Shown piece after piece: positions 7,158 through 10,892 of a stretch of 20,341 bases of DNA. The notes below the pieces were generated by a model. It had not been told where the DNA came from. It worked only from the letters and a program-made list of their open reading frames with translations, and did no database searches. The position numbers and the translations under genes are program-made. This stretch comes from a virus: the IMG/VR virus record IMGVR_UViG_3300008450_000612, positions 1 through 20,341 of that record; one strand, written 5' to 3'. Within the stretch, counting starts at the first letter, position 1. Each line of letters opens with the position of its first letter.

Positions 7158-8407
7158 GGTAAGCCACTCCCTACTAGGTCACTGGATGTCCCTGCTAGAA
7201 GGACTGTTGCGTTAAATGTTCCACCGCCCAATACGAAACCGGGATCAATCGGTATCGCGGCGGATGAGAAGGTCATGCTGTTCCCGCTTCTAACAGCAGG
7301 GGTTGTAACGGCGGGGGGAGTGTAAGAGCCCCCGGTAATGGTTAGGGCTTGAGACTGCCTGTTGATTGTCAAAAGGCCCGTAATAGTACTATTGGTAATC
7401 GTGATGCTGCCGACGGGCACACTAGATAAGTTTAATTGTTTGCAATTTAGTGTGACGGCTAGCGAGGTTGAAAAACCAGAGTTCAGGGTGATGAAACACG
7501 CAGCAGCAGCACTGGGGGTAGGAGCAAACAGCCCCAACACGAATGGCTGGGTATAGTTTGCTGGGCGCATCTGGTACGTGGCGTAATTGCTAGGTATAGC
7601 GCAGTTAAACGTAGGCGTACCACTATTGATTATAAACGAGCCGCCCATCGCTGTCGAAGTTCCAGCCGAGTTAACGATTGTGCCGTTAAAAACCGGAGTT
7701 CCTGTGATATTCAAGGAAGTACTGGATGTTACTGATGAGGCAAACGTGCCGCCGTTAATGTTAGTAACACCAGCAGAAACGGGCCCATTAAATGTCCCAC
7801 CACCGATATTAAAGTTAGTAGAAACTTGGGTTGTTGTAACAGTGCCATTGCAAACAATAGTCCCGCCTAAGCCGCCCTGATATGAGTCCATTGTTACTGT
7901 GCCGTTATATGTCCCGTCGTTAATGCCACCATAATAATCAAAGAAGCTGGCCGTATCTAAAGTGCCGATATAGATATTTGAAGGCCACGGTGTAATATCA
8001 GGACCAGTGTTGATTGTTTGGTAAATAATAACGCTATCTGCGGTTGTTGGTAGTCTTCCTAGCGGCGTTCCGGGGGTACTGACCGCCGTACAACATACGC
8101 AGCAAACAGACCCCGGATCAGAGAACCAATTAACGTCCGCCTTGGCAGAAAACGCTATCGCTGCATCGCCTGTGCCGCTAACCTTTGTAAGCGTACCGCT
8201 GGCAGTTGCCGTTCCCGTCCCACCAGCGCGGATTGTCCCGGAGCCAGTGGTGATGGACGTTCCAGTTACCTTAAACTGAATTCCGTTGTTCTCATAAATA
8301 GCGCCCGCAGTCGGGGTCACCGTAACGCTAGACACTGTGAACTGAATGGATGTGTTCCAGTTGCTGTCCGCCACGCCAATAACATCGCTAAAGTAGACGT
8401 TTGCCAT
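7154..8407 (-). CDS. Fibre-like beta-repeat protein, paralogue B (417 aa)
   Basis: This is a close paralogue of the 416-aa protein at 8438-9688. The N-terminal 90 residues align nearly gap-free (MANVYFSDVIGVADSNWNTS ... GTLTKVSGTGDA ... AKADVNWFSDPGS). The Cys cluster CCVCC at residues 102-106 follows, then TPGTPLGRLPTTAD. The central part is a series of Gly-Gly-Thr-Phe type repeats (INGGTFASSV, TGTPVFNGTIV, NSGTPTFNCAI) typical of beta-solenoid fibres. The C-terminus DPGFVLGGGTFNATVLLAGT ... GSGLP is shared. There is no clear Shine-Dalgarno; a 10-codon mini-ORF ends one base before the ATG and may deliver ribosomes. Host attachment or virion decoration is likely. Confidence 0.8.
   Translation of the reverse strand: MANVYFSDVIGVADSNWNTSIQFTVSSVTVTPTAGAIYENNGIQFKVTGTSITTGSGTIRAGGTGTATASGTLTKVSGTGDAAIAFSAKADVNWFSDPGSVCCVCCTAVSTPGTPLGRLPTTADSVIIYQTINTGPDITPWPSNIYIGTLDTASFFDYYGGINDGTYNGTVTMDSYQGGLGGTIVCNGTVTTTQVSTNFNIGGGTFNGPVSAGVTNINGGTFASSVTSSTSLNITGTPVFNGTIVNSAGTSTAMGGSFIINSGTPTFNCAIPSNYATYQMRPANYTQPFVLGLFAPTPSAAAACFITLNSGFSTSLAVTLNCKQLNLSSVPVGSITITNSTITGLLTINRQSQALTITGGSYTPPAVTTPAVRSGNSMTFSSAAIPIDPGFVLGGGTFNATVLLAGTSSDLVGSGLP
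8102..8140 (-). repeat. 39-bp exact repeat, copy in paralogue B
   Basis: These 39 bases are identical to 9383-9421 in the other large fibre paralogue. They encode the ADVNWFSDPGSVC segment immediately before the Cys cluster, where the two proteins then diverge abruptly. Perfect conservation including third codon positions, with more divergence on both sides, suggests recent recombination or gene conversion. Confidence 0.85.
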
Positions 8408-8408
8408 G

Positions 8409-8441
8409 TTAGACGCGCCCGCTCACAGAATCCGTAGTCAT
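8409..8441 (-). other. Ten-codon mini-ORF linking two fibre paralogues
   Basis: ATG at 8441-8439 overlaps the TGA of the 416-aa gene (CAATGACT), and TAA at 8411-8409 lies one base before the ATG of the 417-aa gene (TAACATG). The peptide would be MTTDSVSGRV. The last seven codons plus spacer match the end of the gene at 9690-10136 (FVNGYS-stop, TAACATG) at 15 of 22 bases by eye. It therefore looks like a leftover gene end carried along when the fibre gene was duplicated, and it may now act as a translational relay. Confidence 0.5.
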
Positions 8442-9688
8442 TGCAAACCACTCCCCATGATGTCGTTGGTTGTGCCTGACAACAGGACTGTCGGATTGAA
8501 TGTTCCGTTACCAACGGCAAAACCGGGATCAGTAGGCACTGCGGCGAAGCTGAACGTCATGTTGCTGCCGCTCTTGATGGCTGGGGTAGTTACTGCGGGG
8601 GGAGAATAAGACCCCCCTGAAATGCTTAGTGATACTGTAGACAATTTATTGATTGTCAAAAGACCCGTAAAAGTGCCGCTGTTAATGCTTATGGAGCCCG
8701 ACCCCGTCCTTTTGGCGTTTAGCGTTACGTTTTGCGATGTTGAAAAACCCGAAGCAATAGTTATAAACGGGCCATTCCCACTTGTAGGGGCGGTAAGTCC
8801 TAACACTAATGCGCGGTCATAGACCCCTTGCCGCAGCGTGTACAAAGTGAAATTATTGGGTATTGCACAGTTAAAAACAGGTGTGCCAGACTCCACTTGA
8901 AAAGTGCTCGCCGCTGCTGTTAAAGTTGCAGCCGAGTTAACGATGGTCCCATTAAATACCGGATTGCCGTTAAGGATAAATAGCGAAAAAGCATTATTAA
9001 CTGTTACCGCCCCCGCGAACGTACCACCGTTAATCCTAACGTAAACCCCAGTAACAGAGCTGTTAAACGTCCCGGCGTTTATTGTTACAGTAGAAAACCC
9101 ACTCCCTACAACTGCGCCATTACAAACAATAGTGCCGCCTACCGAAGGATCGCCGCTACCAAAAGTTAGTGTCCCACTAAATGTACCTGCGCCTATCTCA
9201 CCTTGATATGTTCCGGTGTTGTAAAAAACGCTTGATACTGTAAGAGCGGAAGGCCACGGCGTAATATAAGAAGGGGTGTTAATGGTGTTCCCAATAATGC
9301 AGGTATCTGCGGTAGTTGGTAGTCTGCCCAACGGGGTTCCGGGGACGTTAAATCCGGGGCATCCAGAGCATCCGCAGTAGCCGCAAACAGACCCCGGATC
9401 AGAGAACCAATTAACGTCCGCTTTTGCGGAAAAGGAAATCGTTGCGTCACCTGTACCCGATACCTTTGTGAGCGTACCGCTTGCGGTTGAGGTTCCAGAA
9501 CCCCCAGCATTGATCGTCCCGGAGCCAGCAGCAATAGACGCGCTGGTGACTGTGAAGGTTACGCTATTGTTCGTGTACGTCGCGCCCGCAGTTGGGGTCT
9601 CGGTAACGCCAGACACCGTGAACTGGATAGATGTATTCCAGTTGTTGTCCGTCACCCCAATCGTGTCACCGAAGTAGACGTTTGCCAT
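8438..9688 (-). CDS. Fibre-like beta-repeat protein, paralogue A (416 aa)
   Basis: The first member of the three-gene family in transcription order. It has a beta-rich N-terminal domain (residues 1-95, MANVYFGDTIGVTDNNWNTS ... AKADVNWFSDPGS), a Cys cluster C102-x2-C105-x-C107-x2-C110 (CGYCGCSGC), then GTPLGRLPTTADTC. The middle has degenerate repeats (INAGTFNSSV, INGGTFAGAV, NGNPVFNGTI, ESGTPVFNCAI), consistent with a beta-solenoid. The C-terminus DPGFAVGNGTFNPTVLLSGT ends in GSGLQ. The ATG lies one base after the TAA of the preceding gene (TAACATG). A virion fibre or adhesin is the likeliest role; no enzymatic motif is visible. Confidence 0.8.
   Translation of the reverse strand: MANVYFGDTIGVTDNNWNTSIQFTVSGVTETPTAGATYTNNSVTFTVTSASIAAGSGTINAGGSGTSTASGTLTKVSGTGDATISFSAKADVNWFSDPGSVCGYCGCSGCPGFNVPGTPLGRLPTTADTCIIGNTINTPSYITPWPSALTVSSVFYNTGTYQGEIGAGTFSGTLTFGSGDPSVGGTIVCNGAVVGSGFSTVTINAGTFNSSVTGVYVRINGGTFAGAVTVNNAFSLFILNGNPVFNGTIVNSAATLTAAASTFQVESGTPVFNCAIPNNFTLYTLRQGVYDRALVLGLTAPTSGNGPFITIASGFSTSQNVTLNAKRTGSGSISINSGTFTGLLTINKLSTVSLSISGGSYSPPAVTTPAIKSGSNMTFSFAAVPTDPGFAVGNGTFNPTVLLSGTTNDIMGSGLQ
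9383..9421 (-). repeat. 39-bp exact repeat, copy in paralogue A
   Basis: Identical to 8102-8140, in direct orientation and 1281 bases away. It sits at the same point of the coding sequence in both paralogues, just before the Cys-rich variable stretch. It marks the duplication and could serve as a crossover point for deleting or swapping one copy. Confidence 0.85.
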
Positions 9689-9689
9689 G

Positions 9690-10136
9690 TTATGAGTACC
9701 CGTTCACAAAGCGAGCCGCTTTCCATGCGCCAAGCACAGAGTCGTAGCGGAACATCAATTCACCCTGAGTGCCTGATGCGATGGTGACAGGGCTGGTGAG
9801 TGTGCTGCTGGTAGGGATATGCGCCCAAGTAGAGGAGAACGTCACCGTCCTTGCCCCACCGCTGGCGGTGAGCCAGAACTCAATCTGGTTGCCATCTGCT
9901 GCGCCTGTCGGAGTGTCAATAACCAAGTTGCCTGTCAGGATGACACGGTACGTGATCCTGCCGCTCGACGCTGGGGCTATCGTAGCTGCGTAAGTTAGCG
10001 TAACAGGAGTGTTCGATACAGCCGCGATGTTCGCGGTGGTTGTACGTACAGTAGCCGCACTCTGCACAATCGGAACGATCTCCGTCCCTGTGAGTGTCGC
10101 AGCGGCGGTTAGGTTCGATATTGTGGTATTAGCCAT
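9690..10136 (-). CDS. Small fibre-type protein, 148 aa
   Basis: The N-terminus MANTTISNLTAAATLTGTEI followed by VPIVQSAATVRTTTANIAAV is a common phage attachment motif at the start of fibre or appendage proteins. The C-terminal half (GNQIEFWLTASGGARTVTFS ... GELMFRYDSVLGAWKAARFV) is a beta module like the one in the truncated fibre gene at 1-1175. AAGGA precedes the ATG at good spacing. The gene ends one base before the next ATG. It may be a fibre adaptor on which the following beta-repeat proteins assemble; that partnership is inferred from order only. The tail end of this gene appears to be echoed in the mini-ORF at 8409-8441. Confidence 0.75.
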   Translation of the reverse strand: MANTTISNLTAAATLTGTEIVPIVQSAATVRTTTANIAAVSNTPVTLTYAATIAPASSGRITYRVILTGNLVIDTPTGAADGNQIEFWLTASGGARTVTFSSTWAHIPTSSTLTSPVTIASGTQGELMFRYDSVLGAWKAARFVNGYS

Positions 10137-10139
10137 GTT

Positions 10140-10892
10140 TTATCCTTGGAGCAGGAAGTCGCCGTTTTCAAGTAGGAGGAAGTCCGTCCCGTTCTCTAGC
10201 AGGATACCGTCAGTTACAGCGCCAGCCTGTGCTGTTTGGACAGTAATGGGGCCAACGTATGATACAGTCTCCCCCACACAGTCAGCAGTAGATTCAAGTT
10301 CGTACCCCCAATAACCAGCAGTGGCTATAGAAGCGTCTGTTACTTGTATTACTGTAGTGCCGTTAACTTTTACAGTAAGCGAAGAGCCCGCCACCGTAAA
10401 TGTGAGGGTCGAGTTTGTCGGATCGGTGGCAGACGTACCTAGTATAGTTTCTACTCCTGAAACCAATTTCCTCAACGTAATAGGGGTGACACCAGAAGCA
10501 CTGTCATAACATAGAACAGAGTATCCGCTTGTTGGGGTGTTATTTCCCCCCGGAGTGCTTCTTGCCCATGCAGCTACAAGAGTATTGCCCCCACCAGTAT
10601 AAGAGGGAATTACCACAGCAATTATACTTGCGTCGGTTAATGTGACGGAGTGTCGAAATAACCCCGTATCATACTGGTCTGCTCTGGCGAGAGATGAAGC
10701 AAAAGATATAGCAGAGCCGCCAGCAATATCTACTTGCCAAGTACCACCGCCAGAAATAGGGGATGGCGTTCTATTGTTTACATTGCCGCTCCCTACCCAA
10801 TCCTCTTGCACCAGAACAACTGGAACAAAGGGACCAGCAGCGCCACCTCCACGGAGGTTTGCGATGGATAGACCGAAGCCAAATGGCGGCAT
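10140..10892 (-). CDS. LamG/concanavalin-like virion fibre candidate, 250 aa
   Basis: Gly/Pro-rich start (MPPFGFGLSIANLRGGGAAG), then a jelly-roll-like domain at about residues 28-215 (EDWVGSGNVNNRTPSPISGG ... ADQYDTGLFRHSVTL ... TLTFTVAGSSLTVKVNGTTV ... GYWGYELES). This is the pattern of concanavalin/LamG-like folds in phage appendages. The C-terminus repeats short LLENG units (ILLENGTDFLLLENGDFLLQ), a tail seen in other phage fibre proteins. The ATG directly abuts the TAA of the spike-base gene (TAAATG), so the pair could form base and fibre of a head spike. Sugar binding is plausible but no specific site can be named. Confidence 0.65.
   Translation of the reverse strand: MPPFGFGLSIANLRGGGAAGPFVPVVLVQEDWVGSGNVNNRTPSPISGGGTWQVDIAGGSAISFASSLARADQYDTGLFRHSVTLTDASIIAVVIPSYTGGGNTLVAAWARSTPGGNNTPTSGYSVLCYDSASGVTPITLRKLVSGVETILGTSATDPTNSTLTFTVAGSSLTVKVNGTTVIQVTDASIATAGYWGYELESTADCVGETVSYVGPITVQTAQAGAVTDGILLENGTDFLLLENGDFLLQG

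Follow-up and report, generated by a model that had tools for sequence, protein, structure and literature searches.

We uncovered a ten-codon ORF wedged between two tandem paralogous genes of an uncultured phage, which we read, with moderate confidence and on comparative sequence grounds, as the seam left by a tandem gene gain, in which the start of a downstream gene (D) has been joined to the tail of an upstream gene (U), and which would most likely act as a translational relay from the first paralogue (A) to the second (B). The DNA is the IMG/VR record IMGVR_UViG_3300008450_000612, a virus record of 20,341 bases that was analyzed over its whole length (hereinafter the window), and the region in question lies on its minus strand.

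The gene neighborhood of the mini-ORF

In the order of transcription, the minus strand encodes the following: U (10136-9690; 148 aa), the upstream neighbor, whose terminal TAAcATG leads onto A; paralogue A (9688-8438; 416 aa); the mini-ORF (8441-8409); paralogue B (8407-7154; 417 aa), which runs onto D through an ATGA and has an embedded Shine-Dalgarno sequence (SD), AGGGAG, at 7167-7172; D (7157-6732; 141 aa), a cupin-like protein (Cupin_2, E 1.5e-5, just under the gathering cut-off); and T3 (6716-5784; 310 aa), a third, distant paralogue that lies downstream of D and outside the duplication. The tandem paralogy of A and B extends over the whole genes, with 59% amino acid identity along their full length. 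In the protein tree, T3 groups not with A and B but with P, the single copy of the distant relative L006; hence, it was probably gained separately. T3 also shares one base with the next gene (TAATG). The window further carries minus-strand terminase, portal, major capsid and downstream genes, the capsid protein being ~70% identical to that of the Planktothrix phage Pag-Yong1.

No Pfam or PHROGs family could be assigned to A, B, U or T3, and no match to A, D or T3 turned up among 50,697 phage records. The AlphaFold model of A, built from a seven-sequence alignment, is beta-rich (mean pLDDT 68.5), with low confidence at first and fair to good confidence over residues ~160-400, where a run of short strands points to a predicted solenoid-like fold; a Foldseek search of the PDB with this model returned no significant match (best E 0.12). 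Between the window and its relative L004, the centers of A and B are hypervariable (nucleotide identity 0.55-0.79), unlike A's N-terminal third and both C-termini, which are nearly fixed. The beta-rich model and the hypervariable middle together suggest that A and B may be surface or tail-associated proteins.

Several further oddities are seen around these genes. The 250-aa protein encoded at 10140-10892 on the minus strand has the ends MPPFGFGLSIANLRG... and ...GILLENGTDFLLLENGDFLLQG, which are shared by 50-aa proteins at the same place in two relatives (L004:2138-2290 and L005:3351-3503); a domain of roughly 200 aa thus appears to have been gained or lost, in frame, within that tiny gene. 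The position after D is occupied by T3 in the window, by nothing in L004 and, in L005 (5597-6331), by a gene with the shared N-terminus MPPFGFGLS and a different body, as would be expected of an insertion hot spot with a common N-terminal tag. Similarly, another protein (L004:1156-2124; 322 aa) opens with a stretch that has ~71% identity to U's N-terminal 48 residues (MANTTISNLTAAATLTGTEIVPIVQ...), and this part of U appears to be a mobile N-terminal module. Finally, in Pag-Yong1 an unannotated 24-codon ORF (L017:16931-17005) sits in a 73-nt gap, starting 2 nt past one gene and overlapping the start of the next by 4 nt; it is possibly another relay ORF.

The seam and its ancestry

On the minus strand, the A/mini-ORF/B junction reads ...GGG AGT GGT TTG CAATGACTACGGATTCTGTGAGCGGGCGCGTCTAACATGGCAAAC..., and the mini-ORF itself is ATGACTACGGATTCTGTGAGCGGGCGCGTCTAA (MTTDSVSGRV*). 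The first-pass annotation had described a TGA of A overlapping the ATG of a ten-codon ORF whose TAA ends one base before the ATG of B, and a direct reading of the junction confirms this: A's TGA (8440-8438) forms an ATGA with the mini-ORF's start, giving a -4 link, and after ten codons and the TAA, B's ATG (8407-8405) follows as a +1 link in the form TAAcATG. Without the mini-ORF, the gap from A to B would be 30 nt; with it, the gap becomes two short links resembling most junctions of the operon, both of which, in the window and in L004, fall within the spacing of coupled pairs (an overlap or about -8 to +10 nt). The mini-ORF is also preceded at a spacing of 9 nt by a strong SD-like GGGGAG (8451-8456, minus strand) embedded in A's last codons (GGG AGT GGT), which the first-pass annotation had overlooked. 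Its predicted duplex energy with the anti-SD, -8.1 kcal/mol, lies between the 1% and 5% background quantiles (5%, -7.4 kcal/mol) and makes it as strong as the SD of D (-8.4 kcal/mol). The SDs of A (-3.8 kcal/mol) and B (-5.1 kcal/mol) are weak by the same measure; the latter is a weak match at the 10-25% background level, in agreement with the earlier remark that B has no clear SD of its own.

Of the viral contigs scanned, only two close lineages, L004/L011 and L005, proved informative, besides the distant L006 and L014; L003, L007, L009 and L012 are parts of the L011 contig, and a search of genome contigs gave no relative. As L004 and L011 are 99.9% identical over 6.5 kb, they were counted as one lineage, and this is the only independent one with the duplication. 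It has the order U–A–mini–B–D, with A and B respectively 79% and 69% identical to those of the window. The mini-ORF of L004 (3971-4003; MTTISVSGRV*) and that of its near-twin L011 likewise comprise ten codons in the same frame, so a relative that fails to keep the frame, the outcome named earlier as counting against a translational bridge, was not encountered. The seam of this lineage, ATGACTACGATTTCTGTAAGCGGGCGCGTATAAC, differs from that of the window at 4 of 30 positions with no indel; a GA-to-AT change between the two lineages (ACGGATTCT / ACGATTTCT) could reflect either a pair of substitutions or a -1 and a +1 shift that compensate each other.

By contrast with these duplicated loci, L005 has the unduplicated arrangement U–P–D, with TAACATG at the U/P junction and CCATGATTATT (ATGA) at the P/D junction; L006 is also single-copy and far more diverged. 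In the protein tree, A and B group to the exclusion of L005's P (support 89/93), which is consistent with L005 keeping the older, single-copy state. Set against the duplicated seam of L004, the ancestral-type junctions of L005 allow each end of the mini-ORF to be mapped to an ancestral junction. The synonymous divergence between A and B is saturated (dS 1.2-1.6) and far exceeds the values for U and D when the window is compared with L005 (0.38-0.54). Hence, the extra copy could have been an already divergent allele brought in by unequal crossover, in which case the seam would look unchanged, or L005 may have lost a copy.

The 5′ half of the mini-ORF maps to the start of D. The end of A aligns with the end of B through GGGAGTGGYTTRCMATGAYTA, that is, through the ATGA and a TA beyond it; since B's ATGA is the start of D, the ATG of the mini-ORF occupies the start position of D. 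It thus appears that a D-type SD, lodged in the Gly-Ser codons GGG AGT, came along with a D-type start. The bases following the ATGA match the head of D at 4 of 8 positions, which is not significant; an origin of these first mini-ORF codons in the coding sequence of D is at most suggested.

The 3′ half maps to the end of U. The sequence at 8408-8429 (minus strand), TCTGTGAGCGGGCGCGTCTAAC, is identical at 15 of 22 positions to the end of gene U at 9689-9710 (minus strand), TTTGTGAACGGGTACTCATAAC, its source or sister, in line with the upstream similarity noted at first. The accompanying claim that TAACATG and the first 16 coding bases recur at 9690 holds as an exact repeat, although its length is TAAC plus 17 bases. 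In a blastn comparison of the record with itself, 8427-8301 aligns with 9708-9582 at 81%; as this alignment begins before the ATG, the homology of A and B extends 20 nt upstream of their starts. As the homology of the adjoining genes sets the register, only a single comparison was made: U's last six codons agree with the 18 bases before TAAC at 11 positions, a score equaled or bettered by 7 of 5489 in-frame 18-mers (six-codon windows) from the phage's other genes (p about 0.001). The similarity therefore exceeds chance, and the corresponding comparison between relatives, the L004 mini-ORF against the U end of L005, gives 12 of 18. These alignments of the seam with the U/A junction bear out the proposal that the duplicated unit took in the end of U.

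One could instead suppose that the bases before B never belonged to U and that the match reflects shared constraints on initiation regions. Just 11 of 18 bases are identical beyond TAAC, and the start codons ATG GCA AAC GTC TAC (MANVY) do not vary by a single nucleotide among the five copies, which points to some constraint on the region; however, the p-value was obtained in a register fixed beforehand and the blastn homology is contiguous across the start, and we regard chance or convergence as very improbable. The U-derived portion is confined to codons 5-10 and the stop: by inspection, the first four codons match U at about 3 of 12 bases, on which ground a derivation of the whole mini-ORF from U was rejected. 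Accordingly, the original view of the mini-ORF as a fragment of the preceding gene stands for its latter part, but not for the ATG, ATGA and SD, which sit at D's start position. With the U side supported by its p-value and the D side by the ATGA and the SD position, the mini-ORF is best read as a putative fusion of a D-start and a U-end made at the duplication seam.

The proposed relay and the case for neutrality

We propose that the ancestral order was U–P–D, with the stop of U touching the start of P (TAAcATG), the start of D overlapping the stop of P (ATGA) and the SD of D lying within the last codons of P. A duplication or unequal crossover would then have fused D's head with U's tail, giving U–A–[D-start|U-tail]–B–D; the two parts share a reading frame by chance, so that the seam is a ten-codon ORF with a D-type start and a U-type stop. 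A ribosome finishing A would reinitiate at the overlapping ATG, aided by GGGGAG, translate ten codons, stop one base before the ATG of B and reinitiate there, and a gap of 30 nt, too long for coupling, would become two short links. Given the known distance limits of reinitiation and the shortening of the gap to -4 and +1, a relay is the most economical mechanism. By this reasoning, the mini-ORF would be translated and B would depend on it, and the peptide itself probably has no function of its own.

A competing possibility, to which we give appreciable but clearly lesser credence, is that the seam is a neutral scar, open and in frame by luck and without effect, with B being translated from its own weak, purine-rich site (GAGCGGG) or by ribosomes recruited at A's terminal SD. 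The chance of an open, in-frame join, given the start and the stop, is about 0.23, and after four random substitutions sparing the ATGA and TAA the mini-ORF stays open in 98% of cases, so that neutrality likewise predicts the retention of the frame in the one independent lineage. Its divergence of 0.133 (4/30 nt) is close to that of A (0.174), with no extra conservation relative to the neighborhood; on ten codons, dN/dS has no power. Against neutrality, the SD and ATGA at the end of A are preserved in both duplicated lineages, neither lineage has an indel, and the 30-nt spacing is unfavorable to direct coupling. The codons GGG AGT are identical in all five A, B and P copies, including both A copies, which no longer precede D. 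AGT is used least among the Ser codons (18/223), and a single codon is kept in only 4 of 32 conserved Gly and 5 of 13 conserved Ser columns, the product of these rates being roughly 0.05. This retention at the end of A is the only hint of selection, the evidence for which is weak overall.

The seam might also act through RNA structure: the end of A (GUUUGCAAUG) can pair with the start of B (CAUGGCAAAC), hiding both starts, and translation of A or the mini-ORF would open the stem, with the mini-ORF providing a path for ribosome traffic rather than a hand-over. The stem is present in the minimum free energy fold of the window's seam and in the centroids of both seams, with a pairing probability of about 0.15 in the window and about 0.6 in L004, and the start codon of B is predicted to be 7% unpaired in the window. 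Yet the folding energy of the seams is no better than that of shuffles (z -0.32 and +1.08), and the complementarity stems from the start and end sequences of the P family, so that it comes free with any tandem copy; we consider this explanation improbable.

Under the relay reading, a tandem duplication inside a tightly coupled operon would build its own relay ORF, with approximately a quarter of the seams in frame by chance; as a general statement this is tentative. If B depends on the mini-ORF, a duplicate in a coupled operon would stay translated without a new ribosome-binding site, and if selection keeps in-frame seams, duplication seams would be a general source of minimal ORFs that are immediately useful in translation. 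This would provide a concrete and countable origin for very short ORFs of the kind that annotation pipelines throw away, and it predicts that tandem paralogues in coupled phage operons have seam ORFs above the chance level of roughly 23%.

Comparison with known systems

The hand-over mechanism and short coupling ORFs are known; the new element is their origin at a duplication seam, which we did not find described in the literature. In native gene pairs of E. coli and Haloferax, reinitiation is most efficient where the overlap is short, and hardly any is left at a distance of about 20 nt in H. volcanii and 38 nt in E. coli (PMC10666635). The -4 and +1 links of the seam are the same as those of bacterial and archaeal genes with termination-reinitiation at ATGA and TAATG (PMC6728339, PMC10666635), and the distance dependence in these systems predicts that the mini-ORF would help. 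Unlike those pairs, the present case has two links in series around a ten-codon ORF with no evident product.

Short ORFs that only deliver ribosomes have been proposed and are discussed in a recent review, which cites the mycobacterial MIRUs (PMC12548453). Like such uORFs and the MIRU ORFs, the mini-ORF lies in a polycistronic message, would be coupled to the next gene and apparently serves translation only; MIRUs, however, are mobile repeats inserted at start codons, whereas here the phage genes' own signals have been joined at a seam. A dispersed MIRU-like repeat was rejected, as there is no other copy of the mini-ORF in the window or its relatives. A further parallel is with the leader cistrons of engineered bicistronic designs (PMC5995908), which likewise combine an SD, a very short first cistron and a stop adjoining the target start. 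In those designs the SD of the target lies inside the first cistron, whereas B lacks a clear SD and the upstream gene would itself feed the relay.
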